DNA of 64,000 bases from Filimonas lacunae (GTDB taxonomy: Bacteria > Bacteroidota > Bacteroidia > Chitinophagales > Chitinophagaceae): NCBI RefSeq assembly GCF_002355595.1, contig NZ_AP017422.1, forward strand, positions 4,278,001-4,342,000. Reading direction: 5' to 3'. The translations under genes and the position numbers were made by a program. This document shows, in pieces, positions 44,719 to 62,200 of the stretch; positions within the stretch are counted from its first letter, which is position 1, and the number at the start of each line of letters is the position of its first letter. The notes beneath the pieces were generated by a model. It was given only the letters and a program-made list of their open reading frames with translations, made no database searches and was not told the origin of the DNA.

Positions 44719-44763
44719 GACACAATAATGCACGCTCTCGTTGAGAGCGTGCATTATTGTGTC
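44719..44763. repeat. Perfect 21-bp inverted repeat with a 3-nt loop
   Basis: Bases 44719-44739 (GACACAATAATGCACGCTCTC reading in two parts: GACACAATAATG, CACGCTCTC) are exactly complementary to 44743-44763. The structure directly follows the stop of the 170-residue gene by 13 nt. It lacks a T-run on either side, so it is not a textbook terminator but may still stabilise or end the transcript. Confidence 0.85.
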
Positions 44764-44766
44764 TTA

Positions 44767-44820
44767 CAGCAGGTGCTGGGCCGCGAGCAGCACCTGCTGC
44801 GTGCACTCCAGCACCTGCTG
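44767..44820. repeat. GC-rich 12-mer array: one inverted and two direct copies
   Basis: CAGCAGGTGCTG (44767-44778) is the reverse complement of CAGCACCTGCTG, which appears twice (44788-44799 and 44809-44820). The first copy can pair with either of the others. The remaining bases to 45005 hold no supported gene. Confidence 0.8.
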
Positions 44821-45005
44821 GACCACGAGCAGGTTGACACATTACCGCACAGAAACTGTCCGCTTCCGTTACAACGGCACCCCAACACCCCTCACCTATT
44901 AAAACTGGTTATCAACCACTTACAACTGGCATAGCGGTTTGGCATTGCATTGGCCTTATTACTACTGTAAATGCAAAAACAAACATCATTATAAAAATTA
45001 CAATT

Positions 45006-45464: not shown

Positions 45465-45494
45465 AAAAGCCCGGAATAAACTCCGGGCTTTTTT
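45465..45494 (+). terminator. Terminator after the PepSY-like gene
   Basis: AAAAGCCCGGA (45465-45475) pairs with TCCGGGCTTTT (45482-45492) across a 6-nt loop and is followed by more T. It may also serve the convergent minus-strand operon ending at 45544. Confidence 0.9.
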
Positions 45495-45543: not shown

Positions 45544-46818
45544 TTACCCTTTCGCTGCCAGCTCAATCATTTCCGATAACTCAGTCACCGCTTCTTCATT
45601 AGTGCCGTTGAAGCCGGTTAAGCGAAAACGGATATAACCATTTTTGTCAATGATAAATTTAGCAGGCACACCATCTACACCGTATTTTTTCACTACTTCA
45701 CAATTGCCTGTCTGCGGGCTCTTTTCGTCCAGTAACACGTTAAAACGGAGGTTCTTTTTTTCCAGATATTCTTTAATAGCTGCAACAGGGGCTTGCGGCG
45801 TATACTCCCAGGTATCAATAAACAGGAACACCACGTTTTTATCAGCCGCATATTTATCCACTGCCATTTGCATAGCCGGAAAAGATGCTTTACAGGGTAC
45901 ACACCAGGTGGCCCAAAAATCAAGCACTACTACTTTACCCTGATATTGCTTCAAATCCACTTCCGTGCCTTCGAGGTTGCGCAGCACAAAAACAGGCGCT
46001 TTCTCTTTCAGGCTGCTTTTGCGTATGCTGTCACTGAAGTCTTTACGGATATTGGCTTTTACTTCTTCCAGGTACGCTTCAAAACCACGTTGCTTGCCGT
46101 CATACAAAGCCGCATAAGCTTCTTTCATTTTACTTTCCACGGCACTACCCGCTGCCCTGGCTTTTATTAAGCCAACATATACCTGTAAGGCCTCTTCATA
46201 ACGCTTACTTTTCAATAGCATATCAGCCTGTAATCTCTGTAAGCCCGCGGCGTTCTTTTTTGAGCAGTACTGCATCTTTGCTGTGAGTATATCTACTGCT
46301 TCGCTATACCGTTGCTGCTTATCCAGGAAACCGGTAAGCAACGTTAAGGAAGATGCCAGTATAGAAGCAGGTGTAATGCCCTCCCCTTCTATTTTTTCTT
46401 TATCAATATAAGGCATGGCTGAGTCGATAGAAAGACGGGCATATTTTTCGGCCAGCACCCATTCGTTGGCATTTTCAAAAGCCCTTGATACTTTAAAATA
46501 ATGACCTGCTTTGGCAGGGCCATATTGTAAGTTGCTCATATACCACTCCACTTTGACAACATTCTTTTCCCAGGCAAACATACTGGCTATAAAAGATCTC
46601 AGGTTATCCAGTGCAGGATAACGGGCAGTATCATTCGCATCCACCTGTACGGTGCGAAATGCTGAATCCATGGCATGGCCGGAGTGAATATTGTAGATGT
46701 TGGCCAGTTGCTGATCAATGGTACTCTCTTTACCCTTTTGTGCCAACACTACTGCCGGACAAGCCGAAGCAATAGCGATAACACGCACCCAACAGGTTAT
46801 AAGTATACTTCTTTGCAT
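45544..46818 (-). CDS. TlpA-like periplasmic thioredoxin with a long helical N-terminal domain
   Basis: 424 residues from the ATG at 46818; the longer reading from 46860 is not needed. MQRSILITCWVRVIAIASACPAVVLAQ acts as a signal peptide. A helical, TPR-like N-terminal region follows (about 35-265, with YFKVSRAFENANEWVLAEKYA and DKQQRYSEAVDIL). The C-terminal thioredoxin domain has the redox pair C306/C309 in FWATWCVPCKASFP and the cis-Pro region VDGVPAKFIID. It is the last gene of the ten-gene SusCD operon, 75 nt after its neighbour. It probably reduces or isomerises disulfides in the periplasm. Confidence 0.88.
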   Translation of the reverse strand: MQRSILITCWVRVIAIASACPAVVLAQKGKESTIDQQLANIYNIHSGHAMDSAFRTVQVDANDTARYPALDNLRSFIASMFAWEKNVVKVEWYMSNLQYGPAKAGHYFKVSRAFENANEWVLAEKYARLSIDSAMPYIDKEKIEGEGITPASILASSLTLLTGFLDKQQRYSEAVDILTAKMQYCSKKNAAGLQRLQADMLLKSKRYEEALQVYVGLIKARAAGSAVESKMKEAYAALYDGKQRGFEAYLEEVKANIRKDFSDSIRKSSLKEKAPVFVLRNLEGTEVDLKQYQGKVVVLDFWATWCVPCKASFPAMQMAVDKYAADKNVVFLFIDTWEYTPQAPVAAIKEYLEKKNLRFNVLLDEKSPQTGNCEVVKKYGVDGVPAKFIIDKNGYIRFRLTGFNGTNEEAVTELSEMIELAAKG

Positions 46819-46893
46819 GATTATATACAGTATTACATAGTAAAGAAACAGCAGCAGCACATAGTATCGCTGCTGCTGTTAAGGGTATAGGGT

Positions 46894-48039
46894 TTAGCTT
46901 TTTTTCAGTATTTCTGCCAGCTTTTGTTCCAGCGCCTCTCCTCTTAAATCTCTTGCTATAATTTTCCCATTGGGGTCGAGCAGGAAGTTAGCAGGTATAG
47001 CTTTGAGGTTATACAGCATAGCAATGGGGCTGCTCCAGCCAGCCAGATCGGAAAGCTGCATCCAGGTTAATCCATCTTTTTCAATAGCGCCCATCCAGCG
47101 GTTTTTGCCATCATCTCCTTCATCAAGTGAAAAACCCAGCACCGTAAAGTTCTGATCTTTAAAACGGTTATAAGCTTTCACCACATTGGGATTTTCGTGC
47201 CTGCAGGGTACACACCAGCTGGCCCAGAAATCGATCAGTACATATTTACCACGAAACTGTTTCAGCGCAATATCTTCCCCATTGGTGTTCTTAGCAGTAA
47301 ACTCAGGAGCCACCGAACCTACATCCAATGCTTTGGCACGCTTTAGCATACGTGCTATTACCTGTCCCTGTGAGGAACTTTTCACAGTTTCGTCCAGCAT
47401 ATCATAAGCTGCAATAGCCAGCTCTGCTTTTGTAGAAGGATCGAAATAAGAACGGATAATCAGCAATGACACCAGTGAACTTTTATGCTTGCCCACAAAA
47501 GCCAGTAATGCTTTATCCCTGTTGGCACTCACGGCTTCGTATTGCGATTTTACCAGGCTCGATTCCAGCGAATCTTCTGTTTTGCTGGCCGTAGCAAACC
47601 TGGCTTCCAAAGCAGCCACCTGTTTATCAAAAGGCTTCAGCATTTCTACCAATTCCTGCTGGTCTATATTCAAGGGCGTACCTCCTACTTTGGCATTTTT
47701 GAGGGAGTCGTTGGTATTTACTTCAATAGTACCGTTTTCGAGATACACAGCCACATGATCGCCCAGGGCAATGTTCTGGGGCATTTTACCTTCGTGCGTT
47801 ACATACAGGTAAGCTTTCTGCGGCGCCTGACTTTGGCCGTTGAAGGTGAATTTACCGTTTACCACATCAACTGTATCAAACACCATGCGACCGGGTATCA
47901 TGCGCATGAGCACCGCTTTATTGTTGGGTGACAGGTTTTTAACATACCCATTCATTTGATAACGTTGCGGGTCTTGTGCATGTGCCAGTAAGGGACAGGC
48001 GGCCGCAGCTGTAAAACATATTTTCAGGAATGTATTCAT
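46894..48039 (-). CDS. Periplasmic TlpA-like thioredoxin with DUF4369-like N-terminus (copy 1)
   Basis: 381 residues with signal peptide ending PLLAHAQ. The N-terminal beta-rich domain (about 28-125) holds VYLENGTIEVNTNDSLKNAK and VGGTPLNIDQQ, a DUF4369-like pattern. The C-terminal AhpC/TSA thioredoxin domain has C276/C279 in FWASWCVPCRHENP and the cis-Pro region LKAIPANFLLD. It is a clear paralogue of the protein at 48958-50085. Proteins of this kind are abundant in Bacteroidota; many have a role in periplasmic thiol redox. It lies 25 nt after the serine protease gene. Confidence 0.9.
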   Translation of the reverse strand: MNTFLKICFTAAAACPLLAHAQDPQRYQMNGYVKNLSPNNKAVLMRMIPGRMVFDTVDVVNGKFTFNGQSQAPQKAYLYVTHEGKMPQNIALGDHVAVYLENGTIEVNTNDSLKNAKVGGTPLNIDQQELVEMLKPFDKQVAALEARFATASKTEDSLESSLVKSQYEAVSANRDKALLAFVGKHKSSLVSLLIIRSYFDPSTKAELAIAAYDMLDETVKSSSQGQVIARMLKRAKALDVGSVAPEFTAKNTNGEDIALKQFRGKYVLIDFWASWCVPCRHENPNVVKAYNRFKDQNFTVLGFSLDEGDDGKNRWMGAIEKDGLTWMQLSDLAGWSSPIAMLYNLKAIPANFLLDPNGKIIARDLRGEALEQKLAEILKKS

Positions 48040-48064
48040 TTCTTTTGCTTTTACTCGTTAATGC

Positions 48065-48952
48065 CTATTGAATCATAGAAAAAAGAGAGCGGGCAGGTAT
48101 AGCCTGCTTTACCACCATTTGTAAGTTCTGCTGCTCACGGGCATAGATAGAATGTGTGCTGGACACTACGCCTATAAGGCTGCCAAATGCATCTACAATA
48201 GGGCCACCACTGGAACCTACTGCATAATCTGCAGTAATATCCATACGCTCTGTATAACCTCCAAACTCACTGTACTTTACATTACGGGCTACCACACCTG
48301 TAGAGAAGTAGTAAGGAAAGCCAGTGGGATGCGACAGAATATTTACATCAGCACCTACCGGGGCATCCTTACCAATAGCAATGCCATTGATTTTAGCTGC
48401 ATGCAGGTTCTTTACAGTAAACAATGCGAGGTCGGCATTTTCATTATAGGTCAGTATCTTGTCTATACCATAGATATTGCCATTCAAATCTGACAGAAAC
48501 AGCGTACTGTCCATTTCATAGAACTTCGCATATTTATCCAGCAATTTGCTAAACACATGGTGATTGGTCACCATTACCCCCTCATCATTCAATGCAAAGG
48601 CGGTAGCATCTACCGCAATACCCTCAATGTTCTCATTCGTCTTTCTGAAAAATTTCCATATCACAAACACCTGGTCGTTCAATTGTTTGGCCACAGCTGT
48701 TCGCGGCAGGCTTTTGGCCGTTTGTGCTTTTTTATAAGGCACCGCAATTTTCTCCGGCTTCAACTCCATATTCTCCTGCCAAAGCTGGGTAAAACCTTTT
48801 ACAAGGCCTTTCTCCATATCGGCACGCACATTCTTATATACATCTTTTTTAAACAGCTCATCATCGTGAAAGCTGAGTGTATCCTGCGCATGCAGGCCGG
48901 TAGTACACATTGCCAGTAATAACCCACCGGCAGCCCCTATCTTACGTAACAT
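48065..48952 (-). CDS. Secreted trypsin-like serine protease
   Basis: 295 residues with signal peptide (MLRKIGAAGGLLLAMCTTGLHAQ). The chymotrypsin/S1-type triad is in place: H132 in VTNHHVFSKL, D174 in NENADLALFTV and S248 in AVGSSGGPIVDAFG. The oxyanion-type GSSGGPI sequence and INILSHPTGFPYYFS-like strand (about 203-217) fit the HtrA/Do-like S1C group, but no PDZ domain is present. The N-terminal ~90 residues are helical. It sits inside the thioredoxin gene run (5 nt after one, 25 nt before the next), which suggests a shared task on periplasmic peptides or proteins. Confidence 0.88.
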   Translation of the reverse strand: MLRKIGAAGGLLLAMCTTGLHAQDTLSFHDDELFKKDVYKNVRADMEKGLVKGFTQLWQENMELKPEKIAVPYKKAQTAKSLPRTAVAKQLNDQVFVIWKFFRKTNENIEGIAVDATAFALNDEGVMVTNHHVFSKLLDKYAKFYEMDSTLFLSDLNGNIYGIDKILTYNENADLALFTVKNLHAAKINGIAIGKDAPVGADVNILSHPTGFPYYFSTGVVARNVKYSEFGGYTERMDITADYAVGSSGGPIVDAFGSLIGVVSSTHSIYAREQQNLQMVVKQAIPARSLFSMIQ

Positions 48953-48957
48953 CCTTC

Positions 48958-50085
48958 TTAGTTTAAAATTTGCGCTAATTGTTTTTCCAGTTCCTGACCG
49001 CGTAAGTTCATAGCCACTATTTTACCTGCAGGGTCTAACAACAGGTTGGTAGGTAATGCAGTTACACCGTACAGCTTGGCCACCGACTCCGTTTCCATAG
49101 CGTTGTCTTTTAAATTGGTCCAGGTGTACTTGTCTTCTGCTACTGCTTTTTTCCAGGCATCGGCACTTTGATCTACTGAAAAACTAATGATCTCAAATTT
49201 TTTGTGTTTGAATTTAGAATAACTGGTAATCAGGTTCGGGCTTTCCTTGCGACATGGACCACACCAGCTTGCCCAAAAGTCGAGCAATACATACTTACCT
49301 CTAAAGTCACTTAAATGCTTTTCAGCACCGAGCATATCTTTCGCCGCAAAATCCGGCGCTACTTTACCTACCGCCAGTTTGTACACGTTCTCTATAGATT
49401 CTTTATATAAAGTACCGGAAGAAGAATTTTTAATATCATCTGATAAAGAATTATACAGGTTAGACGCCAGCTCTACGTTATCAGAAGGATTAAAATTATT
49501 TCTCAGCACATGCATGGCCACCAGCGACCTGGGATGTGACTGAATAAAACCCGCCATCCCTGTTTGTAACATCACATCCATTTGCTTGTAATCGCCAATC
49601 AACTCTTCACGCTTCACCGAATCTGTTTCGGTTTTGTATTTGGCAATAATTTCCGCTTGTAATTCTTTCAGATTACCAATGCTATTCAAATAATCCTGCT
49701 GATCTATATTTAACTGCGAGCCCCCCACTTTAGCATGTTGTAACGAATCGGGCGAAGTAACTTCTATGGTACCGTTTTCCAGGTAAATAGTCAATTGATC
49801 CATAGGCCTGCGCGAATAGGAAGGCTCTCCTCCCTGACGCAGGTAAAGCGTGGTTTTTTGCTGCAATTCAGCTGTACCTGATAAAGTAAACTGATGGTTC
49901 TTCACTTCTGCCGAATCGCCCCTCATGCCATTATTCCTGTATATAATGAATACTTTGGCAGGCTCTGCTACATTCCCCAACTGCCCTTTAATAGTGAATT
50001 CCAGTTTACCACTTTTACCTTGCTGGGCATGCGCCATTCCTCCGCACAAACATGCTGCTGCCAGTAATAATTTGCTACTTTTCAT
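48958..50085 (-). CDS. Periplasmic TlpA-like thioredoxin with DUF4369-like N-terminus (copy 2)
   Basis: 375 residues with signal peptide ending GGMAHAQ. The N-terminal domain repeats the pattern of its paralogue (IYLENGTIEVTSPDSLQHAK and VGGSQLNIDQQ). The C-terminal thioredoxin domain carries C275/C278 in FWASWCGPCRKESP and LYGVTALPTNLLLD with the cis-Pro. A helical linker (about 135-235) joins the two. It follows the short thioredoxin gene by 11 nt and precedes the protease gene by 5 nt. Confidence 0.9.
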   Translation of the reverse strand: MKSSKLLLAAACLCGGMAHAQQGKSGKLEFTIKGQLGNVAEPAKVFIIYRNNGMRGDSAEVKNHQFTLSGTAELQQKTTLYLRQGGEPSYSRRPMDQLTIYLENGTIEVTSPDSLQHAKVGGSQLNIDQQDYLNSIGNLKELQAEIIAKYKTETDSVKREELIGDYKQMDVMLQTGMAGFIQSHPRSLVAMHVLRNNFNPSDNVELASNLYNSLSDDIKNSSSGTLYKESIENVYKLAVGKVAPDFAAKDMLGAEKHLSDFRGKYVLLDFWASWCGPCRKESPNLITSYSKFKHKKFEIISFSVDQSADAWKKAVAEDKYTWTNLKDNAMETESVAKLYGVTALPTNLLLDPAGKIVAMNLRGQELEKQLAQILN

Positions 50086-50096
50086 TTTGCTACCTT

Positions 50097-50618
50097 TTAT
50101 TTCAGTTTATTGAGATACTCCAGCGTTTCTGCATGAGAAGGCCTGGACATAGAATATTGCAATACTTTTCCCTGCTTATCCAGCAGTATAAAGCGGGGTA
50201 TACGGTCAATGTCAAAAGCACGTTCAAAGGTGGTATCAGTGACCACCCATTGTGTACCTTCCGTCATCTGATAACCTTGCAAAGCCCCTATCCACCGGAA
50301 TTTGGTACGATCAATGGAAACACTTAACACCTTCACGGTATTCGCATCCACTTTTCCCATCAGTTCTTTTAAAAAAGGATATTCCTTCCGGCAGGGATAA
50401 CACCACGATGCCCATATATCCAGGTACACATACTTTCCTGCATACTCTTTTAAAGTATGCGCATTGCCGGTAGAATCTTCAAACCGGTAGGCAGCAGCAT
50501 CCAGGCTGGCTACATAGGCGGCAGAATCGCGCCTGGTTTGTTGCTGGGCATGCACCTGCCCGGCAATAACAAACATCAGCAACGTACCAGCCACAAACAT
50601 CTTTGTACTCGTTCTCAT
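50097..50618 (-). CDS. Short periplasmic TlpA-like thioredoxin
   Basis: 173 residues with signal peptide MRTSTKMFVAGTLLMFVIAGQVHAQ. It is one thioredoxin domain with no N-terminal extension. C73/C76 lie in IWASWCYPCRKEYP and the cis-Pro region is DIDRIPRFILLD. It is 20 nt after the lipoprotein gene and 11 nt before the first DUF4369-type thioredoxin. The WCYPC active site differs from the WCxPC of its neighbours in the middle residue, so redox potential may differ. Confidence 0.9.
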   Translation of the reverse strand: MRTSTKMFVAGTLLMFVIAGQVHAQQQTRRDSAAYVASLDAAAYRFEDSTGNAHTLKEYAGKYVYLDIWASWCYPCRKEYPFLKELMGKVDANTVKVLSVSIDRTKFRWIGALQGYQMTEGTQWVVTDTTFERAFDIDRIPRFILLDKQGKVLQYSMSRPSHAETLEYLNKLK

Positions 50619-50638
50619 AATTATTAATGCTGCAAATT

Positions 50639-51661
50639 TTATGGATAAACATAGAAGCTCACCAGCGCAAAGCCGTTGAAAGAGGTGGTAGCCGCCGGTG
50701 GCGCACTGAGCGCATCTGTTGGCTCGCGCACTATTTGCAAACCCAGTAAATAATACTTACCGGTTTCAAACGCTTCATAGTTGGTAAAATTGACTTTAAC
50801 ACTATCACTGCTTAAATAAGCATTAGCAGGTATGGTAGCTTTATTTTTAGCCAGGGAATAAGTACCTGCCGGAAAAGCCTGGTAACTGTAGCCAGTAGAA
50901 GCGCTGAATGCTTTTATCAGCGAATCACTTACATTGGTTACCGCATATACATGCATTTCCTGGCTCTTTAAACGGGTACGGGCAAAGCTGCTGAAGCTTA
51001 ATGATTCCGGACCGGTTATTTTCCCGTTTTCATCTCGGGTAAAGTAGATAGGATAATACAGGCTGCCACTTCTGTTATATGCCCAGTAATAGCTGAAATA
51101 ATCAGCTCCGTTCATATATACATCCACACTGGTAGCAGCCACAAAAAATTTAAAGAACACAATAGAAGTGGCCACCTGCTCGCCTGTGCGGGCAGTAAGG
51201 CGCACCGGCACCAGGTAAGTAGTACTGTCTTTTAGTCTGGTAGCGCTTTTCAGCTTAATAAATAAAGAATCTGTAGCTGTGGTGGCATTAGCGGCAATAG
51301 TAAAAACGCCGTTATAAGATACTTTAAAAGAAGAGGTATCGAAGGAAGGATTAGATTCGGAATACAACGCATTATAAGAAGCTACCAATGAAGGATCAAT
51401 CACTGCATCCACCACTACCTCGTGCGATGCTGCACCCGTAAGTGATACAGCAAAGCCCCTGTAGGTAAGCGTAGTATCTTCATAAGCAATGCCGTTAAGC
51501 CTTACAGCCGAACCGCTTTGCACATAAGAGAATTTATAATTGGATAGCTCCCGGGCCAGGCTGGTAAGCGCATCGTCTTCTTTTTTACAGGCAAACACGG
51601 TAACAGCAGCTACCAGCACCAGTAATAAAGCATATGTATGGGAAGGTCTGTTTGTTTTCAT
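50639..51661 (-). CDS. Surface lipoprotein of the SusE/DUF1735-like type
   Basis: 340 residues. The lipobox is in VAAVTVFACKKED (C25), so the protein is lipid-anchored. Sequence signals include a beta-sandwich N-terminal part (about 75-175: HEVVVDAVIDPSLVASYNAL, SDSSSF-like turns and DSTTYLVPVRLTA) typical of the DUF1735/BT_3987 family found in Sus operons. The C-terminal half has aromatic-rich strands (YYWAYNRSGSLYYPIYF). SusE-like proteins bind substrate at the cell surface. It lies 21 nt after susD and 20 nt before the short thioredoxin gene. Confidence 0.82.
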   Translation of the reverse strand: MKTNRPSHTYALLLVLVAAVTVFACKKEDDALTSLARELSNYKFSYVQSGSAVRLNGIAYEDTTLTYRGFAVSLTGAASHEVVVDAVIDPSLVASYNALYSESNPSFDTSSFKVSYNGVFTIAANATTATDSLFIKLKSATRLKDSTTYLVPVRLTARTGEQVATSIVFFKFFVAATSVDVYMNGADYFSYYWAYNRSGSLYYPIYFTRDENGKITGPESLSFSSFARTRLKSQEMHVYAVTNVSDSLIKAFSASTGYSYQAFPAGTYSLAKNKATIPANAYLSSDSVKVNFTNYEAFETGKYYLLGLQIVREPTDALSAPPAATTSFNGFALVSFYVYP

Positions 51662-51682
51662 GCTATTCAGTTTTTCAGTTCT

Positions 51683-53071
51683 TTACTGTCTTACATTCTG
51701 TGTAATGTTGGGATTATTTGCCAGTATGGTTTGTGTAAATGGCATCACATACCGCGAAGAAAGTGCGGGCAAGGTGGCCAGCACCGTGCTGTCATCCCCT
51801 TTACGTGTTAAATCCACTGCTGTGGCAGCATCCTGGTTCAGGCGTTTGAGATCGAATAACCGCAGGCCACCATGCATAAACAGCTCGCGCCTTCTTTCTG
51901 CCAACACCAGCCGTAACGCTTCTGATGACGTAGAAGCACTTACCGGAACGTAATACCTTACCCGGTTGGTTGCAATGGTATTTACAATATCCACCGCTCC
52001 GGTTATCTCCCCTTTCCTGGCCAGACATTCGGCTTTGGTAAGCAGCACTTCCGGCGTGGACAGGCTAAAGTCTGTAACAATAGTAGTAGCGCCGTTGTAA
52101 GTAGTAGTGCGCATAGCCCCTGCATAGTCAAACCTAAGACTATAACGCATGTCATAATAACCCAGGTAAGCATATAAAGAAGGGCTGTTCCTTACTGAGT
52201 AGTTATTAAACATCTTATAAAATGTTTGCTCATAGGCTATTTTGGCCATCAGTATTTCCGGGTTATTACGCAGATCTACCAGCTGTGTAGGAATAGCATA
52301 GCCGCTGATATAGTTGGTTACTTTGTTTACCAGGGCCAATGAAGAATCGGCATATAACAGTGCTGAATCGTAGTTGTGCATGTATAAGTATGCCCTGGCT
52401 AATAAAGCATAACCTGCGGCCTTACCTGGATGCAGGATATCCTTGCCTGTGCCAGGCAAGTAAGAATTACTTACTGCTGTTCTCAAATCGCTCACCACCT
52501 GCGAATACACTTCCTGTACGGTAGCCCTGTAAGGTAAAGCAGCCGCATTGGGTGCAAGTACCAGTGGTACCGCCAGATCGGTAAAGGAAGAAGTGGTCTG
52601 ATAGGCAGGACCATATATGTTAGCCAGTTGCAGATAATACCAGCTACGGTGTATCAGGCTTTGAGCTATCACCATATTCCTGTTCTGTACGGTATTGGAA
52701 GTATCGGCCGGCGCGCTTGTCACCTTACTCAATATCACATTCATTTGCAGAATGCGGGTATAAGAACCGGAATACATAAAATCTACATCTGCCGCATTCC
52801 ATATGGTGTTCTGCCATAAATAACTGCGGGTATAGCTATTGTCAATGCTGCCACGCATGTTATTGGTCATATAAGTATCATCACTCATCAGGTCGGTAAG
52901 AAAATAGTTACCAATGCCCAGCGAATCGCTGTTCAGCATTTCCTGAAAGTCTGCAATCGTGCTGGGGTTTACCACCTGCGTAGAAGGTGTTACATCTAAA
53001 AACTTACTACACCCTGTAAAAGCAAAGCAGGTAAGTAAAAAAGCTATTTTATAAAGATGCTGTTTCATCAT
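51683..53071 (-). CDS. SusD/RagB family outer-membrane nutrient-binding lipoprotein
   Basis: 462 residues. The lipobox is in LTCFAFTGCSKFLDVTP, and KFLDVTPSTQVV is the usual SusD N-terminus. TPR-like helices follow (about 120-250), including LIHRSWYYLQLANIYGPAYQ and the PGKAAGYALLARAYLYMHNYDSAL segment found in nearly every SusD. The C-terminal end has LTKAECLARKGEITGAVDIVN and RREL-F-HGGLRLFDLKRL. SusD acts as a lid on the partner SusC barrel and binds the substrate. It is 19 nt after susC. Confidence 0.95.
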   Translation of the reverse strand: MMKQHLYKIAFLLTCFAFTGCSKFLDVTPSTQVVNPSTIADFQEMLNSDSLGIGNYFLTDLMSDDTYMTNNMRGSIDNSYTRSYLWQNTIWNAADVDFMYSGSYTRILQMNVILSKVTSAPADTSNTVQNRNMVIAQSLIHRSWYYLQLANIYGPAYQTTSSFTDLAVPLVLAPNAAALPYRATVQEVYSQVVSDLRTAVSNSYLPGTGKDILHPGKAAGYALLARAYLYMHNYDSALLYADSSLALVNKVTNYISGYAIPTQLVDLRNNPEILMAKIAYEQTFYKMFNNYSVRNSPSLYAYLGYYDMRYSLRFDYAGAMRTTTYNGATTIVTDFSLSTPEVLLTKAECLARKGEITGAVDIVNTIATNRVRYYVPVSASTSSEALRLVLAERRRELFMHGGLRLFDLKRLNQDAATAVDLTRKGDDSTVLATLPALSSRYVMPFTQTILANNPNITQNVRQ

Positions 53072-53090
53072 TTACATTTGAGTTAGTGGA

Positions 53091-56000
53091 TTAAAGGCCT
53101 ATCATCAGGCTACAGGAATATTGTTTGGGAATAGGCAGGCCTATAATACCATTGCTGCCTACTACTGCCGGGTCCAGTTTATACTTATTCTTTACCCACA
53201 CAGCCACGTTTTGCATTTGCACGGTAAGCATAACACTATTCAGTTTCAGATGCTGGATCATTTTCTGTGGCACACGCCAGCCTGCCATTATTTCCTGTAA
53301 CCGAACATAGTCGGCCGAGGTAATACTATTGGTAGAGTTGTTGGCAACAAATGCCCGGTAAGTACCTTCTCCATTTGCCGACATAGCAGGCACATCTGTA
53401 TACAGTTCGTCGCCCGGCTTTTTCCAACGGTTCCTGATCAATGCGCTGTTCACCAGCGTTCCGGAAGAGGTAGGAATATACCTTTTCATAACAGCGCCCC
53501 AGCTAAAGGTGAGGGCTGCCCTTGCAAAAAACTGACCCAGCGTTACTTCCTGTATCAGCCCACCGTTCCAGGGAGCTTTTAGCACACCTGCATAGGTAAG
53601 AGAAGAGGTAAGCGTAGCGCTATCCAAGGCAGTTGTTTTTTCCCCTTTGGTATTATAGATCTGTGGGTTACCCTGATTGTCTAATCCCGCCCATTTATAG
53701 GCCCATATGTTAGAGGTACTGTATCCATCCCGGTAAGCAGTAGCATATTGGTTGGTACCTGTAAAACCAGTTCTAGGTACCGATTTGGCGATATTTACAT
53801 TGTAAGCCCCGTTTAACGTAATGGAATAACTTACCTTTTGTGTTTTTACCACGCTGGTTTTTAAAAAGAACTCCACACCCTTGTTTACGATATTACTGTA
53901 GGCAACCTGTGACCCCAAACCGCTGGCTACATCTGAGCTAACAGAAACGGTGCTGTTCAACCCTGAAGTGGTTTTATTGTAGTATCGCAGGTCTACCATG
54001 TACTTATCGTCCTGAATACCTATCCTTGCCCTTACCTCGTAGTTGATATTCTTGGGAGGAAGTACATTAAATGTACTGTTGGTAGCCATGCTGTAGCTAC
54101 CCCCGCTGGAAGCATTGGTACCCATCATTAACCCTAAGCCCTGATAAGGACTTACGTTTTGAACTATCACCTCGGCTTCGAGCGTGGAGATACGTTTAGA
54201 ATGGAAGAAAGATTCTTTGGCAATATTGTACTTGGCTTCACCATTCACCTGCGATTGTCCTTCCGGAGATTTGCTGTAGCTCACTCCCATAGAGAAGAGT
54301 CCATTTCTTAAATTGGCTTTGGCACTGGCACTTACGTAATGAATAGTAGTATCAACTCCGGAAGCACTGCTTAACCCGGTCATTTTTTGTGTATTGTAAG
54401 CTGCCGACAATTCAAACTTTCCCTGTAACAATGCCAGTTTTAGCCGTTGGTACACATTCTGTGAACGTTGGCCCTTTTGCTGGGTAGGCGAAGCGCTGTT
54501 TACCCAGATAGCATAATTGCTCCAATATACCTGCTGATAACGTGCTGCATTATAAATAACCGGTAAGTCAGGCATTTTATTACCTACTACGCCTGTAGAA
54601 AAGCCGATATTATCCAGCCAGCTGTTTAACGGACGCTTTAGCACATCTACCGATCCGTCGATATAATAGTTAGACATCACAGAATACTTTTTATCCTGTC
54701 CGTAATTAGGATTGTATACACTGTTATAAGAACCGGAGAGAGTTACCCTGTTATCATATTTATAGCTGGCCGCCGCGTTCCAGTTTATGTTCCTGGAATT
54801 GGTATTGAGCATATTGGTAGGCACTGCCAGACTGGAAGGATATACTGTAGCGCCCTGGCCGGGAAACAACACATAGTAATTGCTTACCGCAGCATTAGGA
54901 TCGGGCGTGGGTAAAAAAATGGGAGCTCCGGTTTTGGTAATGGTGTTATAACCATACAAGGTATAGGCATCAGGTCTTCTGTAACTAACGCTGGCCGCAC
55001 CTCCACCTATAGCCAGGCTAACCTCGCTTTTACCAAAGGTTCTGCTGTAATCCAGCCCCGTGCGCACGTTCCACTCTTTGTTAATGCTTTTGCCTTGTTT
55101 AAAAATGTTACCATAGGGTACATAAAAGTTAATACCGGTGCTTTTGTACTCACCATACTGGTTATAGGTTTGCCTGGCCAGGCTGGATTCTTTATCATAA
55201 AAATCTTCCGTAGTATTATTCTGTTGCGTATAGTATACCGCAGCGTTCCATTGTATGCCTGGCAACAGTTTCCAGTTGAGGTTAAACCGGGTTTGTCCCT
55301 GGTAGTTTTTAGTAGTGCTTTTGTTAATGAGGGCGTCCTCTAAAATGTTCTCGGCATTATTCTTATATCCCAGCGACATAATTTTAGCATTAGCATCGGG
55401 GTTAAGCGAATAATAATCGTACACATAATTACCACTGTTATCCAGCAACATCTGGTAAGGCTGTAAGCTTAAGCTGCTGGGGTTTAAGTTATAGCCGGCG
55501 CGGGAATGCATACTGGCTACATATACCAGCCAGCTAATGTTCAGCTTATCCTGTAACAGGTTAAAAGAATTGTTGAGGTTAAGGCTAAAGGTTTTATTAT
55601 ATCCTTTCAGGTTGTTGTCCTGGTTATTGCTATAACCACCCATAAAAGAGAATTTATAATTCCTGGTTCCGCCGTTCATCGACAGGTTGTGGCTTTGGCT
55701 AAAAGCATTCTGTTGCAACTGACGCAGCTGTGATTCATTATCCAGTTTCCCTAACGAATCCCAGGATTGCTGAAACGCACCTTTACTAATAAGATTGTTA
55801 TGTAAGCGGGCCAGCAACAACGAAGCAGGCGAATTATGAAAAGAGGTTACCGGATTGTAAGTGTTCTGACTAACAAACATGGAATCGGCCTGTAACATAT
55901 AATCCAGCACATCGGCGGTATTAGGCAGCTGTAGTTTTTCCCTGTTAAACCGGGATGCAGGTGTATAATACAGGTTGGAAGAATAATTCAGCTGTATCTG

Positions 56001-57236
56001 CCCGCTTTTACCTTGTTTGGTGCGAATCATAATAATACCGGTGGTGGCCCTTGGCCCCCATTTTATCAGTTCTTTCGGGTCTTTGATCACCTCCACTGAT
56101 TCTACGTTGTTCATGGGAAAATCGGACGGGAAACCATCTTTAGGAAAACCGTCGATGACCACCAGCATGCTGGTAGCATTGCCGGCAAAAGAATTTACCC
56201 CCCTCAACTCAGGCACCACTGTGGTAGACACACGGGTAACCGTAGTAAGATGATATATATCCGCATTCATCCAGCTGGGAATGTTGCCACTGAGTTTGGC
56301 ATTGATAATTTCCTGCCCGTTAGGATTGCTGCGCAAAAACTGATCTAAGGTCATGTTTGTCCACAACGTACGGGGATTATAAGAAGCAACATTGGTAACG
56401 ATAACGTTGGTAGAAGTAACCGTTTGTAATGTTAACCCCGGAACAGTGCCTTGTAACACCTGTCCCAGGTTCATATAACTTCTGTTGGTAAGATCGATGT
56501 GCGTAGTAGGGTCTTTTCTGCTGGCAACAGATGATACTTTTACATTTTGCAGTAAAGAGCCACCTATAGGTTCCATATGCACAAGCAAAAAGCCTTCCCC
56601 ATCATAACGCAGTTCCATATCGGTAAAGCCCTCTCCCGAAAAGTTGATGATGGTGCCATTGGTGCCGGGTATAGAAAACTCACCCTGGTCGTTGGTATAG
56701 GTATAGAAATAACTTTGATCGTATTGTATCATAACACCTGCCAGTGGCCTGTTCTTATAATCTAATACACGGCCTTTTATCTGCTCCTGGCTTCCGGCCA
56801 CGGGCAACAGGGCATTGATACTACCCGCGTCAGCCTTCCTGGTGCTTTTGGGCGTAACTACTATAGTTTTATTGGCAATGGAATAGTTTACCGGCAGCTT
56901 TTCAAAAAGCCTTTTTAACAGTTTGTCTAATGGTTCTTTTTCGGCTTTGATGGTCACCTTCTTTACATCACGCAGCAACGCCTGGTTGTAGAATACATCG
57001 TAGTCCGATTGTGTTTTAATTTCATCCAACACCCTACTCAACGGCGCATCGGTAATATCCAGTGTTATTTCCTGGGCCGTTACAGTGGCAACCGATACAA
57101 TACATAGCACCAGCAGCAACCATAGCCGCTTGAAGTTGTTTTGTAAAAGAGCACGCAAAAGGCCGTGCCGGCTTACCGTTAAAACCCGGTAAGTTGGGGT
57201 AATAGAATGCCTGTCTCCATTTTGCAGAGTGTACAT
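53091..57236 (-). CDS. SusC/RagA family TonB-dependent outer-membrane receptor with STN domain and a plug insertion
   Basis: 1381 residues from the ATG at 57236; a TTG 24 nt upstream is not needed. An N-terminal extension leads to the signal sequence (37-54: KRLWLLLVLCIVSVATVT). An STN domain (about 57-130) suits a transducer that signals to FecR. Then come a carboxypeptidase-like domain (about 153-222), the plug (about 240-410; ATSMLVVIDGFPKDG and VEVIKDPKELIKWGPRATTGIIMI) and a long beta-barrel. Between LQGTVPGLTL (about 261-270) and RGVNSF (about 345) lie ~70 residues not seen in typical SusC plugs. The gene is 65 nt after fecR and 19 nt before susD. Substrate unknown. Confidence 0.95.
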   Translation of the reverse strand: MYTLQNGDRHSITPTYRVLTVSRHGLLRALLQNNFKRLWLLLVLCIVSVATVTAQEITLDITDAPLSRVLDEIKTQSDYDVFYNQALLRDVKKVTIKAEKEPLDKLLKRLFEKLPVNYSIANKTIVVTPKSTRKADAGSINALLPVAGSQEQIKGRVLDYKNRPLAGVMIQYDQSYFYTYTNDQGEFSIPGTNGTIINFSGEGFTDMELRYDGEGFLLVHMEPIGGSLLQNVKVSSVASRKDPTTHIDLTNRSYMNLGQVLQGTVPGLTLQTVTSTNVIVTNVASYNPRTLWTNMTLDQFLRSNPNGQEIINAKLSGNIPSWMNADIYHLTTVTRVSTTVVPELRGVNSFAGNATSMLVVIDGFPKDGFPSDFPMNNVESVEVIKDPKELIKWGPRATTGIIMIRTKQGKSGQIQLNYSSNLYYTPASRFNREKLQLPNTADVLDYMLQADSMFVSQNTYNPVTSFHNSPASLLLARLHNNLISKGAFQQSWDSLGKLDNESQLRQLQQNAFSQSHNLSMNGGTRNYKFSFMGGYSNNQDNNLKGYNKTFSLNLNNSFNLLQDKLNISWLVYVASMHSRAGYNLNPSSLSLQPYQMLLDNSGNYVYDYYSLNPDANAKIMSLGYKNNAENILEDALINKSTTKNYQGQTRFNLNWKLLPGIQWNAAVYYTQQNNTTEDFYDKESSLARQTYNQYGEYKSTGINFYVPYGNIFKQGKSINKEWNVRTGLDYSRTFGKSEVSLAIGGGAASVSYRRPDAYTLYGYNTITKTGAPIFLPTPDPNAAVSNYYVLFPGQGATVYPSSLAVPTNMLNTNSRNINWNAAASYKYDNRVTLSGSYNSVYNPNYGQDKKYSVMSNYYIDGSVDVLKRPLNSWLDNIGFSTGVVGNKMPDLPVIYNAARYQQVYWSNYAIWVNSASPTQQKGQRSQNVYQRLKLALLQGKFELSAAYNTQKMTGLSSASGVDTTIHYVSASAKANLRNGLFSMGVSYSKSPEGQSQVNGEAKYNIAKESFFHSKRISTLEAEVIVQNVSPYQGLGLMMGTNASSGGSYSMATNSTFNVLPPKNINYEVRARIGIQDDKYMVDLRYYNKTTSGLNSTVSVSSDVASGLGSQVAYSNIVNKGVEFFLKTSVVKTQKVSYSITLNGAYNVNIAKSVPRTGFTGTNQYATAYRDGYSTSNIWAYKWAGLDNQGNPQIYNTKGEKTTALDSATLTSSLTYAGVLKAPWNGGLIQEVTLGQFFARAALTFSWGAVMKRYIPTSSGTLVNSALIRNRWKKPGDELYTDVPAMSANGEGTYRAFVANNSTNSITSADYVRLQEIMAGWRVPQKMIQHLKLNSVMLTVQMQNVAVWVKNKYKLDPAVVGSNGIIGLPIPKQYSCSLMIGL

Positions 57237-57301
57237 AATAAGCAGTTTTGTTTTAATCAATAGAGGGAAGGGACGAACGCAGTTACATAGCTATATCATT
57301 A

Positions 57302-58453
57302 TTATTTCACATAAAGTGTGTTTTCTTTCAGCACACAGTGTATGCCACTGAGAGATAGCACCTTTATTACTTCGGATAAATTCTGGTTCATAGGAGTAGA
57401 ACCGGTAAATACAATATTCCTGTTAACATTATCGGCATACACTACCGTTATACCATACCATCTTTCAATGGACCGCATAATTTCGTCCAGCTTCATGTTA
57501 TCAAATACAAACTTATTCTTCAGCCAGCCCGTTGCATTATCAGCGTCCACCTCCACCACCTTCAACTCCTCTGTACTTCTGGGTTTTATAGCTGCCTGGT
57601 TAGGCTTCAATAACGATTGTTTCCCACCTGCATGCACACTTACACTTCCTTCTATTAACGTAGTGGCAATAGCCGGTTCATCCGCATAAGCATTAATAGT
57701 AAACCGCGTACCTAACACATTCACTTCTACCCCGTCCACTTTTACCATAAAAGGCGCTTTCGCCTGCTGCACAATATCAAAATACGCCTCCCCTTTCAGT
57801 TCCACTAAACGTATCCCTTTTTCAAAGTTCAACGGGTAACGTATTTCAGAGCCTGCATTCAACCACACCTCACTGCCATCAGGCAGTTGCACACGATAAC
57901 GTCTGCCCCTGTTGGTAGTAGCGGTATTATATATGTTACCCACACCTTTACCTTCATAACGCAGCGTTCCATTTTCCTTAATCACTTTTATCCCCTGCTC
58001 CACCGAAACCACACCATCCTGTAACGTATCCAGCAGCAACTTTCTGCCATCATTCATGGTAAGCACCAACCCCGCCTGTCCAGGCTTTTTATCACTCACC
58101 ACATTAGCCAGTTGCGGTACTTTTTTAGACGGGAAAAACAGCACATAGGATAGAATACAAGCCACAATTACCGCAGCCGCACCAGACAGGTAAATAATAG
58201 TAGCACGTTTAACAGAGCGCACCTTTGCTGGTTGGGTGAAACGAACGGCCGGGTCTTCTTTGGCAATCTCCTGCTCTATAGCGCTCAGCACCTGCAAACG
58301 ATGTTGCTCACGATCTTCCGCTATAGCAGCAGGCACCAGCACATCCGCTCCCTGGTTATCGCTATACCAGGCCGCGTATAAATCCATCTCTTCGCGGGTA
58401 ATGGTGCCGTTAAGCCATTTTTTCTCTAAGCTTGTCAGTAATTCTTCATTCAT
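57302..58453 (-). CDS. FecR family anti-sigma factor/signal transducer
   Basis: 383 residues from the ATG at 58453. A cytoplasmic N-terminal part (about 1-80; KKWLNGTITREEMDLYAAWY) binds the sigma factor. One TM helix (84-107; TIIYLSGAAAVIVACILSYV) follows. The periplasmic FecR domain (about 180-275; VQLPDGSEVWLNAGSEIRYP and ELKGEAYFDI) and a DUF4974-type C-terminal domain (about 315-383; NKFVFDNMKLDEIMRSIERW) receive the signal from the SusC STN domain. It sits 54 nt after the sigma gene and 65 nt before susC, the usual order. Confidence 0.95.
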   Translation of the reverse strand: MNEELLTSLEKKWLNGTITREEMDLYAAWYSDNQGADVLVPAAIAEDREQHRLQVLSAIEQEIAKEDPAVRFTQPAKVRSVKRATIIYLSGAAAVIVACILSYVLFFPSKKVPQLANVVSDKKPGQAGLVLTMNDGRKLLLDTLQDGVVSVEQGIKVIKENGTLRYEGKGVGNIYNTATTNRGRRYRVQLPDGSEVWLNAGSEIRYPLNFEKGIRLVELKGEAYFDIVQQAKAPFMVKVDGVEVNVLGTRFTINAYADEPAIATTLIEGSVSVHAGGKQSLLKPNQAAIKPRSTEELKVVEVDADNATGWLKNKFVFDNMKLDEIMRSIERWYGITVVYADNVNRNIVFTGSTPMNQNLSEVIKVLSLSGIHCVLKENTLYVK

Positions 58454-58507
58454 ATTCAACAATAGCAGCTGTTTCTATACCTATAGTCAAAAAAGAAGAA
58501 GGCACCC

Positions 58508-59101
58508 CTATATCATTTCCAATATATTTTTAAAAACAATGTGTAGCGGGCTGAAATATTTCAATTTTTCGCGTAAAACACGCAGTGCCCGGGTGAGATT
58601 GGCTTCCACGGCCTTTTCGGATATATCTAATTGAGAGGCTATTTCTTTGTTGCTGAATCCATCGTGACGACTCATCTGGTACACCAGCCGGCATTTTTCG
58701 GGCAGCCCCGTAACAATGGTTTCCAGCTGTTGCTGCAACTCCTGGAAAGAAAGGGTTTCATGCGCATTGGCAGGCGCCACGAAGGAATCATCGGTGTACT
58801 CTCCGGATTTTTGCCGGGCTTTAGTCCGTTCCAGGCGAGCGTTGATAACTTTATACTTGAGCGCAGCAGCCAGGTATATGTTAGCAGTTTTCTGTATAAC
58901 AATCTTTTCCCTACGGGTCCACACATCAATAAACAGGTTTTGCACTACTTCCTGTGCCAGAAAAACATCGTTCAGTTTATTACTGGCCACTACCAGCAGT
59001 TTTTCCCAATAACGGTTATACAGCTCGGCAAAAGCCCAATGCTTCCCATCCTTTATCTGCGTAAACAGCTCTTCATCAGAATATTCGCGGATGGACTGCA
59101 T
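58508..59101 (-). CDS. ECF sigma-70 factor (Bacteroidota Sus-type)
   Basis: 197 residues. The region-2 helices are in AFAELYNRYWEKLLVVASNK and LAQEVVQNLFIDVWTRRE (about 20-63). Region 4 has LVYQMSRHDGFSNKEIASQL and DISEKAVEANLTRALRVL (about 139-176), a helix-turn-helix. It heads the operon with fecR and susCD, the usual arrangement for a sigma factor released when the outer-membrane receptor binds its substrate. Its own promoter was not identified in the 148-bp upstream gap. Confidence 0.95.
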   Translation of the reverse strand: MQSIREYSDEELFTQIKDGKHWAFAELYNRYWEKLLVVASNKLNDVFLAQEVVQNLFIDVWTRREKIVIQKTANIYLAAALKYKVINARLERTKARQKSGEYTDDSFVAPANAHETLSFQELQQQLETIVTGLPEKCRLVYQMSRHDGFSNKEIASQLDISEKAVEANLTRALRVLREKLKYFSPLHIVFKNILEMI

Positions 59102-59194
59102 GAGTAATTCTACTTATTTGAATGTGTCCCCAAAAAAAGGAATTAAATAGTATTCTACCAAAAGCGGCTGTAAACAGAAAAACAGACATGACAC

Positions 59195-59231
59195 AAAAAT
59201 GCCACCCCATATATATGAGGCGGCATTTTTT
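59195..59231 (-). terminator. Terminator after the glycosidase-like gene
   Basis: AAAAATGCCACCCCAT (59195-59210) faces ATGAGGCGGCATTTTT. The two non-complementary positions read A/C and C/A on the plus strand but G-U wobble pairs on the minus-strand RNA. The hairpin therefore suits a minus-strand transcript ending 19 nt past the stop at 59250, and it separates this gene from the sigma operon. Confidence 0.85.
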
Positions 59232-59249
59232 ATAGTTGAAAACAACATT

Positions 59250-62200
59250 TTATAGCACTACCGACACTGCCATTAAACCAATGACTACATCATTGGTAAG
59301 GGTTTCCAGTTGTAAATGATCCAGTACTTTATGGGGGTCCAGCACCATATCCAGCACCGTAGCGGCACCCCCTTCGATGGCGCGGTTACTGAAACCTTTA
59401 ATGGAACTGTATTTAGGCAGCGTAAAACCCACCTGCCCGGTTTTCAGGTACACACGCAACGGGCGTGGCGTTTGTAAACTAAAAGCTCCCCCGTTATCTT
59501 CATAATCCTGTTCTATCGGACACCAGTTTTCCGGATTCTTCAGGTTCAGCACACCACTGGTGCCATCTTTATAATACACCGTAACCCTGCCATTCACCAA
59601 CTGGCTTTGCATGGGATTGGTGCTGCCTGCCATTAACAGGTATATGTGGCTCCCTTTGCCCGTTAAAGGCACAGTAGCTGTATCAGGATAGTTATCCCAT
59701 TTAGAGGTGTAAATGATGTTATTGGCATTGCTATCGGCCGGTGTAGCAAACACAATCCCCTGTGGCAGCGTGAATCTGTTGCTGCCTCCTGCTGCTTTGC
59801 GCAAACCACTATTATCAATATCGGCCTGTATCAGCGGATAACACCAGTTACCTATACCCTGTACAGGCAATTGCAACGTGGGCGATTGCGGACGTGGTGA
59901 GAGATAATTGTTTTTAAAGATGCGGGTAAGCTTATCATTGAACAATGCCCCCAGCGCCACGGAGCTACTCTTTTGATCCGTGGTTACATTCCAGTTAATT
60001 ATGGTAGTATCCAGCCTGCTGCCATCATCGCCTATCCATTGTATACGATTGGTTCCTGTAATCACAGAGATTGCTGACACATCCACCTTCATCCCTTGCT
60101 TTCCCGCAGGAATACTGATCTTTTGTATAAAGGCACGGCTGCCGTCATTCACCTGCACCGTACCATTTACTGCACCGGATGCTGCATTATACAGGGTAAA
60201 TGCCAATGCATTCACAGGCTGTTGTTTGGTAGCAGCTATGCTTATAGCCTGTTGCTGGTAAAAATCTACCGCATGCCACCATTGCAGCTGGCCTTGTTTT
60301 AATAACAGGAAAAAGGTATGCGCCCCCGGTGTTGCTACCGGCTGTGCCGCCAGGCGATGCGCCTGTAGCTGATGCGTTTGCAATACCTGCTGCGGATCGT
60401 ACACATCCAGTATGGTAGCATTAGCTGTATTACAGGCAAACAGCTGTTGCCCCAAACGGATACTATCATATGCCGGCTTCTCAGGCGCCACTCCTTTCCA
60501 GCGAATGACTACATGCCAGCTTGTAGTGGCAGGCGCGGCTAATTCGATAGCCGGTTGACCTACCTGCACTATTAGCTTCCATTGTACAGGTTTGCCATTA
60601 ATGGTTACCTGCTGCACCTGTGTAAATGGCGCATTCACTACCATTTTCAAATGCAGGGGTTTGGCAAAAGTGGAGGTAATAGTATAATCGTCTGTAGTGC
60701 CTGTTCGCTGAAACTGCAAGCGGGTATCCGGCAATTGTATAGCCGCCTGCTTCCAGGCAGTGGGAAAGCCCGGGTGAATGGTAAGCGTATCGCGCATAGC
60801 ATCGGGCACAATACCAAATAACCCTTCTACCAATGAACGTGCAGCCATACCTATCGGATCTCCAAAATCGCGGTACAACTCTCCTCTTGCAGCATCATAC
60901 TTCGATAACTGCGGAAAACCACCGGGGCTGGCACTCATGTACATCGATTCTATCATAGCACTCCGCCATAAACGGAAAGCGGCGTCAGAACGGTTGCCCT
61001 GCCAGTAAGCCAATGCCGTGTGCAGGTTTTCGGCCAGCGCCACATTGTTCAGCGACCAATCGTAGGGTTGCCAGTTGGTGGTGGCTAACAGGTATAAAGA
61101 AGGAGTAGTTTCTCCCTTTACATGCACGGGCAAATGCGGTATATGTGTATCGATGTAACGTAAGCTCTGGTAAGCCTGAAAAGCATCCGGCACCCTCGAG
61201 TCTATGGCATGATAGATAGTCCATAAAGCCGCAGACGGATGCAGCTGCTGGTTGCCCAATGCATCTTTGTATTCTGCATACCAGCCCTTTTCGGGCATCC
61301 ACAGTTTGGATTGAATAGCCTGATAAATTTTATCTGCTTCCTTTTCATACAAGCTGGCATCTTCCCCTATCACCTTTGCCAGGAAAGCCGCTTCGCGGTT
61401 GGCAAAATAGTTATAAGAAGTAGAATGCGTTACCGCACCACCGCTGTATTGTAAAGCATCACTGGCCCATATGCAGCAATAAGCATCATATAAACCATCA
61501 TTATCCATATCAAAATTACGCTTCTCCCAGGCCAGGTGCCTTTGCAGCAACGGCCACATTTGTTTTACATAAGCCGTATCACCGGTCCAGTTAAAATGAC
61601 GCAGCAACTGATCTACAAACACCAGGTTCATATCGTAGTGATGCGCCCGGAAATCGCCATTGGGATTGCGACAGATATAACCACTACTAAACAGAGACGT
61701 GCCCAGCTTTTCCAGCTGTCGTGCCAGGTGCAGCGCAGTATCGGCTACTACCGGTGCAGTAGCGGGTTCAGTTAACTGAGATAACGCATAGCTGCTAAAG
61801 TGCGCCCTGGCCCTGTCGTGCCTGCCTAAAGGATCGGCTACATACGGGCCACGCCACGCATTTAGTCGCATGCGCCAGGCTACTGCACCATGCAGGTAGG
61901 TAGGGTATTCCCAAATGCCATCTTCCGCCATGCTTAATGCACTGCCAAGCGTATTGATATATGCATCCGGCGTTTTTACCTGTATCCGTTCCGCCAGCGC
62001 TTTGCGCGCCGCTTCTGCTTTATCAAATGCCCCTGCCAGCTCTTCATATGTTTTAACGCCTGCATCAGGTTTTCCAATATAGAAATATCCCTGAAAGCCA
62101 GTAAGGGGTAATGAACCTGCCACGATAGGTGTGCCGGACACCACTGCACTTAAACAAACAGCCGGATTTTCCTGCCTGACAGCATCCGCCATTTTTAACA

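Follow-up and report, generated by a model that had tools for sequence, protein, structure and literature searches.

A ten-gene set on the minus strand of the Filimonas lacunae genome, running from 59101 to 45544 of the 64,000-nucleotide stretch analysed here (the window), combines an extracytoplasmic function (ECF) sigma factor, a FecR-type anti-sigma factor and a SusCD transporter pair with four thioredoxins and a trypsin-like serine protease. The observation itself is confirmed, and we propose, with about an even chance of being right, that the set encodes a self-regulated, RagAB-like SusCD importer whose proteinaceous ligand would be reduced and cut in the periplasm. SusCD systems have mostly been studied as glycan importers; if some are polypeptide importers with built-in reduction, many uncharacterised transporters would acquire a testable substrate class.

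Composition of the gene set

The first-pass annotation, made from the sequence alone, had described ten genes on one strand with an ECF sigma/FecR/SusCD head, four thioredoxins and a protease, and this content was borne out: all ten open reading frames lie on the minus strand, and Pfam backs every family assignment (E-values in brackets). Gene 1 (58508–59101) encodes an ECF sigma factor of 197 amino acids (Sigma70_r4_2, 5.1e-13; Sig70_bacteroi1, 1.8e-36, at 125.8 bits against a cut-off of 126.4), and gene 2 (57302–58462) a FecR-type anti-sigma factor of 386 amino acids (FecR, 1.1e-15; FecR_C, 1.2e-17). Gene 3 (53091–57260) encodes a SusC-type TonB-dependent transporter of 1389 amino acids with an STN signalling domain (STN, 1.6e-9; Plug, 7.3e-7; OMP_RagA_SusC, 8.5e-68, the last scoring 229.6 bits, under the curated cut-off of 368). 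By family membership, sigma factor, FecR and STN together make up a FecIRA-type signalling gene set. The SusD-type lid lipoprotein (gene 4, 51683–53071, 462 amino acids; SusD-like_3, 4.7e-29; SusD_RagB, 2.8e-11) begins 19 nt downstream of SusC, making an adjacent SusCD pair, and has a lipobox-like Cys21; signal peptides and lipoboxes were judged by eye. Gene 5 (50639–51661, 340 amino acids) encodes a surface-type lipoprotein with two BT_3987-like_N stretches (PF08522, 9.3e-24), whose Cys25 is invariant in nine aligned proteins.

The remaining genes encode the thioredoxins and the protease. Gene 6 (50097–50618, 173 amino acids) is a small TlpA/ResA-type thioredoxin with a CxxC motif in the form WCYPC (Redoxin, 7e-15). 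Genes 7 (48958–50085, 375 amino acids, WCGPC; AhpC-TSA, 4.1e-24; DUF4369, 5.3e-13) and 9 (46894–48039, 381 amino acids, WCVPC; AhpC-TSA, 2.6e-22; DUF4369, 1.5e-14) are the two thioredoxins in which a common DUF4369-like domain had already been recognised, and gene 10 (45544–46818, WCVPC; AhpC-TSA, 2.6e-21) is a fourth thioredoxin without a DUF4369 match. All four match the AhpC-TSA, Redoxin or Thioredoxin_8 families and carry WCxxC. Gene 8 (48065–48952, 295 amino acids) encodes an HtrA-like serine protease domain (Trypsin_2, 1.4e-16) whose H132, D174 and S248 are invariant across ten aligned proteins; its AlphaFold model (predicted local distance difference test score, pLDDT, 79) gave the protease domains of Deg1, DegS and HtrA1 as best Foldseek matches (E from 2.3e-12). 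At E up to 0.001 the protein has no PDZ match, and it ends after the protease domain. Pfam detected no glycosidase or other carbohydrate-active enzyme (CAZyme) among the ten products, in agreement with the first reading. The gaps between genes 1 to 10 are, in order, 45, 41, 19, 21, 20, 11, 5, 25 and 33 nt, the last becoming 75 nt when gene 10 is started, as we did, at its first in-frame ATG (46818) instead of the GTG at 46860 given in the list of open reading frames; with this start, the range of 5–75 nt given earlier is right.

The individual parts have known counterparts. RagAB of Porphyromonas gingivalis and Bt2261-64 of Bacteroides thetaiotaomicron are described in PMC7782687 as SusCD complexes with oligopeptide ligands. 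Like these, the window set would form a TonB-dependent SusC barrel with a SusD lid; unlike them, it adds the STN domain with sigma and FecR, four thioredoxins and a protease, and its own peptide ligand is putative. With polysaccharide utilisation loci (for example the levan system Bt1762-63) it has in common a SusCD pair and, where the glycan-binding protein would be, a surface lipoprotein, but in place of CAZymes it has thioredoxins and a protease. The latter resembles the HtrA/Deg proteases (Deg1, Deg5, DegS, HtrA1) in its trypsin-like domain and triad residues and differs from them in its length of 295 amino acids, its lack of a PDZ match and its location among uptake genes. Similarly, the thioredoxins share fold and WCxxC with the ResA/TlpA thiol-disulfide oxidoreductases (nearest solved chains 2lrn, 3fkf and 4nmu) but are set apart by an N-terminal DUF4369 domain and a top ResA score of 102.5 bits against a cut-off of 170. 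Peptidases in SusCD loci have been noted before (PMC7768429 and PMC6298971, the latter taking them as a hint of glycoprotein), and peptidases co-expressed with laminarin use are mentioned in PMC6246565. Our searches of the open-access literature, a scope outside which most subscription papers fall, turned up no account of SusCD operons that also encode TlpA-type thioredoxins and proteases.

In the scheme that we propose, the BT_3987-like lipoprotein and SusD would bind the ligand outside the cell, and SusC would import it with TonB energy, SusD acting as the lid. Occupancy of SusC would be signalled through STN to FecR and the ECF sigma factor, raising expression of the operon. Within the periplasm, the four thioredoxins, fed by a single DsbD, would break the disulfides of the cargo or keep them broken, and the HtrA-like protease would cut it. 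Import, signalling and periplasmic location are predicted from the protein families. The DsbD transmembrane domain is the usual electron source for such thioredoxins, and DsbD_TM occurs once in the window's genome. A disulfide-bearing peptide or protein fragment is the ligand that we infer; the disulfide step, the least certain part of the proposal, is suggested by the absence of any other obvious thiol target in the set and by the repeated pairing of thioredoxins with peptidases.

Recurrence with different transporters

We scanned one genome for each of 84,980 species with the protease family and obtained 74 named loci, 36 of which were assigned to Bacteroidota by their record names, several coming from the same or near-identical genomes. 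Gene maps were drawn with a mechanical longest-open-reading-frame caller, and family labels came from hidden Markov models seeded with the window proteins and iterated on the same loci. Among the 36 Bacteroidota loci, a thioredoxin was the same-strand neighbour of the protease in 30 and lay within 11 kb on either strand in 32; SusC or SusD was present in 30, and thioredoxin together with SusC/D occurred within 11 kb on either strand in 27. Neither thioredoxin nor SusC/D was found in any of the 38 non-Bacteroidota loci (mostly Verrucomicrobia and Planctomycetes). Departures within Bacteroidota include three loci with SusC/D and no thioredoxin (L052, L053, L061), one with neither (L122), one in which protease and thioredoxin operon are divergently oriented (L056), and five with thioredoxin and no SusC/D in the examined DNA (L055, L057, L058, L063, L118), four of these five having short upstream flanks.

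The locus of [Flexibacter] sp. ATCC 35208 (L051) has the identical order of all ten genes, and the eight genes from SusC on are 54–69% identical to those of the window. Its regulators (L051:2-1743, compared with window 57302-59101) are more distant, with FecR 37% identical over 274 amino acids and the sigma factor, whose start is missing, 22% over 157 amino acids; the pair seems either to have been swapped or to change much faster. A second copy of the core lies in the window's own genome (L031, C1:4109126-4121277) in the order sigma, FecR, SusC, SusD, BT_3987-like lipoprotein, thioredoxin, double thioredoxin and protease, with SusC 47% identical. Loci resembling the core also occur in genomes G067 (L036) and G234 (L042); in L036, a sigma gene 45% identical to that of the window (5567-6175) is found within the cluster, in opposite orientation, and not at its head. 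The earlier proposal had allowed that the thioredoxins might prove unrelated passengers if gene order were not conserved; both the set and its order recur across genera and families, so that this objection fails. One broken copy was seen on a metagenome-assembled contig of G147, where the thioredoxin gene adjoining the protease (L037:3800-4289) is interrupted by an in-frame stop, marking either a pseudogene or an assembly error.

A separate SusD search across 348 genomes of the order, in which the best 4 candidates per genome were scored, returned at least 6 genomes at E ≤ 1e-60; because only four candidates were scored in each genome, absence from this search means little. In the five loci found by SusD similarity outside the window's genome (L208-L212), a thioredoxin follows SusD directly or follows SusD plus lipoprotein, and no protease was found in the 19 kb examined per locus. 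The protease is a frequent, not a fixed, member of the module.

We placed the SusD proteins on a FastTree tree rooted at the midpoint, in which two halves are separated at support 84. The window and L051 form a fully supported sister pair inside a nine-row clade (clade A), whose other rows are the second copy of the window's genome (L031), G067 (L036), G234 (L042), Mucilaginibacter (L098), Arachidicoccus (L106), S. mizutaii (L119) and Chitinophaga polysaccharea (L052). Clade B comprises 21 rows, among them Pedobacter, Chitinophaga and Sphingobacterium; its SusC is a different one, of approximately 1220–1260 amino acids, and its genes run SusC, SusD, lipoprotein, thioredoxin, thioredoxin, protease. 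A third background with DUF4843/PKD_2-type neighbours was confirmed in loci of that SusD group in the window's genome, and L054, L056 and L084 probably belong to it, judging from gene sizes and order. The SusD tree requires at least 4 changes for the protease and 14 for the thioredoxin; in an independent-pairs comparison of the two, differing pairs were too few for a test. Since the module recurs with different transporters, a functional link between its parts is suggested.

Growth of the set by duplication, also proposed in the first-pass annotation, is supported. Genes 7 and 9 share 38% identity over 377 amino acids, and each groups with its positional counterpart in L051 with full support, which places the duplication before the split between the window and L051. 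A separate thioredoxin duplication occurred in S. mizutaii, and in L031 two thioredoxin domains are contained in one protein.

Nature of the cargo

We then considered thioredoxins and SusCD loci genome-wide. In the window's genome, 27 of the 50 AhpC-TSA domains follow a same-strand SusD within 7 kb, compared with 2.1 ± 1.6 under a circular-shift null (0 of 2000 shifts reach 27). Likewise, 23 of 59 listed AhpC-TSA matches did so in G225 (best 59 of 69; 150 of 198 SusD candidates scored; null 4.0, 0/2000) and 10 of 35 in G067 (best 35 of 44; null 1.0, 2/2000). Chance neighbourhood of thioredoxins and SusD is rejected by these nulls and by the locus counts (27/36 versus 0/38). When 94 of the 96 SusD matches of the window's genome were mapped by gene chains, 22 loci had a thioredoxin downstream and 72 had none, and the thioredoxin-positive loci were confined to a single half of the tree (22 of 42 own-genome rows versus 0 of 52; p = 3e-10).

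The other genes of these loci point to protein. All 37 other downstream genes of the 22 thioredoxin-positive loci were scanned, and none was a glycoside hydrolase; nine, in seven loci, were peptidases (trypsin-like 2, S41 1, Met-zincin 3, M16 1, S9 2). The 72 thioredoxin-negative loci gave at least 28 glycoside-hydrolase matches in 140 downstream genes (Fisher p = 0.0015 versus the positive loci). The 140 were the 147 genes of the negative set minus six under 150 amino acids and one of 1971 amino acids, short genes being kept in the positive set; thresholds were E ≤ 1e-5 for negative and 0.001 for positive loci. Counts in the negative set come from its 25 commonest families with one family assumed per gene, so that glycoside hydrolases are lower bounds and single peptidases may be hidden. 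Left out of the peptidase count were two alpha/beta hydrolases with S9 as a lesser match (L048:10109, L043:10585) and an Mx1 match below the cut-off (L142:2935). The presence of peptidases and absence of glycoside hydrolases in thioredoxin loci favours a proteinaceous over a purely polysaccharide substrate. Of the original idea that the system takes up a disulfide-bearing peptide or protein fragment, the proteinaceous part is favoured by this contrast; the disulfides of the ligand are conjectural, and a glycoprotein would also fit.

The whole thioredoxin-bearing half of the SusD tree, with at least two glycoside hydrolases among 65 scanned downstream genes, looks peptide-oriented, with thioredoxins as frequent, not obligatory, partners. 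We therefore extend the proposal only tentatively, and with more doubt than belief, to a broad, phylogenetically distinct class of SusCD systems in Bacteroidota that would import disulfide-bonded polypeptides, in which periplasmic reduction and cutting by TlpA-type thioredoxins and a trypsin-like, S41, M16, S9 or Met-zincin peptidase would replace the glycosidases, the window set being among the fullest versions. If this were true, more than half of the genome's AhpC-TSA-type thioredoxin domains (the 27 of 50 counted above) would gain a likely role. Elsewhere in the same genome, the SusCD locus L142:2935-11873, which includes two Met-zincins together with a DPP-IV-like S9 peptidase and a thioredoxin, is a strong candidate for polypeptide uptake as well.

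Several observations weigh against uptake and reduction of a disulfide-bearing ligand by the window set. The 28 scanned downstream genes of thioredoxin-negative loci in the thioredoxin-bearing half gave at least eight peptidase and at least two glycoside-hydrolase matches (25 of 33 families listed), indicating that peptide uptake need not involve disulfides. Chitinophaga polysaccharea (L052) has SusCD, lipoprotein and protease and no thioredoxin within 11 kb, and L209 (G106) has an A-type SusC of 1377 amino acids, SusD, lipoprotein and thioredoxin and no protease in 19 kb, so that neither component is indispensable. In L035 (G085) and L038 (G147), thioredoxin and protease are neighbours with no SusCD beside them. 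Distribution is sparse: the protease was matched at E<1e-20 in 8 of 244 genomes of the family, the window's own included, and the two same-genus genomes among those listed gave no match of any strength. SusC matched five PDB chains at E up to 1e-5 (8ypt and 8ypu, named as SusC/RagA family, 5t3r, 6zlt and 8aa4), none of them identifiable as P. gingivalis RagA; we found no literature naming 8YPT. Glycan loci contain lipoproteins of the same type as this surface lipoprotein, whose AlphaFold model (pLDDT 83) has as its top Foldseek match a putative carbohydrate-binding protein (4dqa, template modelling score 0.29) with the BT_3987 endoglycosidase lower down, and three of nine aligned homologues carry a long C-terminal extension. 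Finally, a CxxC beyond residue 40 is present in 26 of 42 related proteases, including all 21 of clade B, and absent from those of the window and L051.

The lipoprotein keeps one alternative alive. A glycoprotein or glycopeptide substrate, whose sugar part would be held by the BT_3987-like lipoprotein and SusD while protease and thioredoxins handle the protein part, is in our view unlikely but a live rival, because this lipoprotein type is known from glycan loci. Its two BT_3987-like_N stretches and glycan-type nearest folds are consistent with such a substrate, as is a thioredoxin locus of the same genome (L161) that combines BT_3987-like_N with F5/8 type C; furthermore, published polysaccharide utilisation loci with peptidases have been read as possible glycoprotein loci (PMC6298971 and PMC7768429). 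The absence of any glycosidase from the ten genes and from the 37 downstream genes argues against it, and the lone glycosidase-like gene nearby stands behind a hairpin, the next upstream gene in L031, L036 and L042 being on the other strand.

Cysteine contents bear on a further alternative, which we regard as rather improbable: that thioredoxins and protease serve the envelope, by upkeep or quality control of envelope proteins on induction, or that the thioredoxins redox-switch the protease. TlpA/ResA relatives act on envelope proteins, the HtrA-like fold is known from quality-control proteases, and the CxxC of related proteases (CPRC, CPKC, CGNC, CDNC or CYNC, located ahead of the catalytic His in the aligned proteins, and found in L039-L041, L052, L054, L057, L083, L084 and the remaining clade B loci) may serve as a redox switch or a metal-binding site; clade B proteases could themselves be targets of the thioredoxins. 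The mature window protease, however, has zero cysteines, with none beyond residue 30 there or in L051, the sole cysteine of the lipoprotein is the lipid-bearing one, and outside the signal region SusD and SusC have one further cysteine each. No other mature exported protein of the set thus has two non-lipid cysteines, and the thioredoxins would find no intramolecular disulfide there; service to disulfides within the set's own products was rejected on these counts. Moreover, the 72 of 94 SusCD loci without a downstream thioredoxin imply that SusCD assembly needs none. Across clade A, a cysteine lies seven residues from the SusC C-terminus in six of eight proteins, and one lies in the AECLAR/AECLSR motif of SusD in all nine; the two might form a disulfide. 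WCxxC is present in 97 of 98 thioredoxin-labelled open reading frames (L031-L124 and the window).

Uptake of metal, haem or siderophore under FecIR-type control, with thioredoxins as reductants, appears very unlikely. The set does share its sigma-FecR-STN logic with systems for ferric citrate and ferric siderophores, but sigma-FecR pairs precede many SusCD loci of the same genome, and Pfam matched no metal-binding family among the ten proteins. An iron-stimulon table of P. intermedia includes a TlpA-family and a trypsin-like gene, but at separate loci (PMC10434189). Least probable of all is detoxification, in which disulfide-bonded antimicrobial peptides would be imported and destroyed, not fed on: the gene content fits this equally and the sequence offers nothing to separate it from nutritional uptake, but toxin import would be an unlikely first defence, and no immunity-type family was matched by Pfam among the ten proteins.

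Hairpins and neighbouring genes

The first-pass annotation had stated that no terminator lies between sigma and the last thioredoxin; this was wrong. A 13-bp hairpin on the minus strand precedes gene 10 (46847–46880; ΔG −22.1 kcal/mol, z −5.9, equalled by 0 of 200 shuffles) and was marked as terminator-like. Read from 46880 to 46847, it is followed by TCTTTACT; because this tail is only moderately T-rich, the hairpin may be an attenuator or partial terminator. Such a hairpin is missing before gene 10 of L051 (z −0.06), the one other locus found with all ten genes. After gene 10, a terminator-like hairpin with a 12-bp stem and a T-rich tail lies at 45465–45492 on the minus strand (ΔG −19.7, z −4.3).

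Upstream, a glycosidase-like DUF4450 gene of 1220 amino acids with weak six-hairpin glycosidase matches (59250–62912, minus strand) ends 148 nt before sigma, and a hairpin with a T-run lies between the two (59185–59245, minus strand; ΔG −22.8, z −5.8). We rejected its membership in the same transcript, given this hairpin and the other-strand upstream genes of L031, L036 and L042; L051 is uninformative on this point, its stretch starting within sigma.

At 44719–44763, a 20-bp inverted repeat with a five-base loop adjoins a region rich in GCAGGTGCTG-like repeats (approximately 44760–44850). Across and beyond the end of the window, the next SusCD locus (L034:3217-14009; C1:4341216-4352008) runs sigma, FecR, SusC, SusD and thioredoxin, after which come genes for a histidine kinase, a LytTR response regulator and an outer-membrane barrel.

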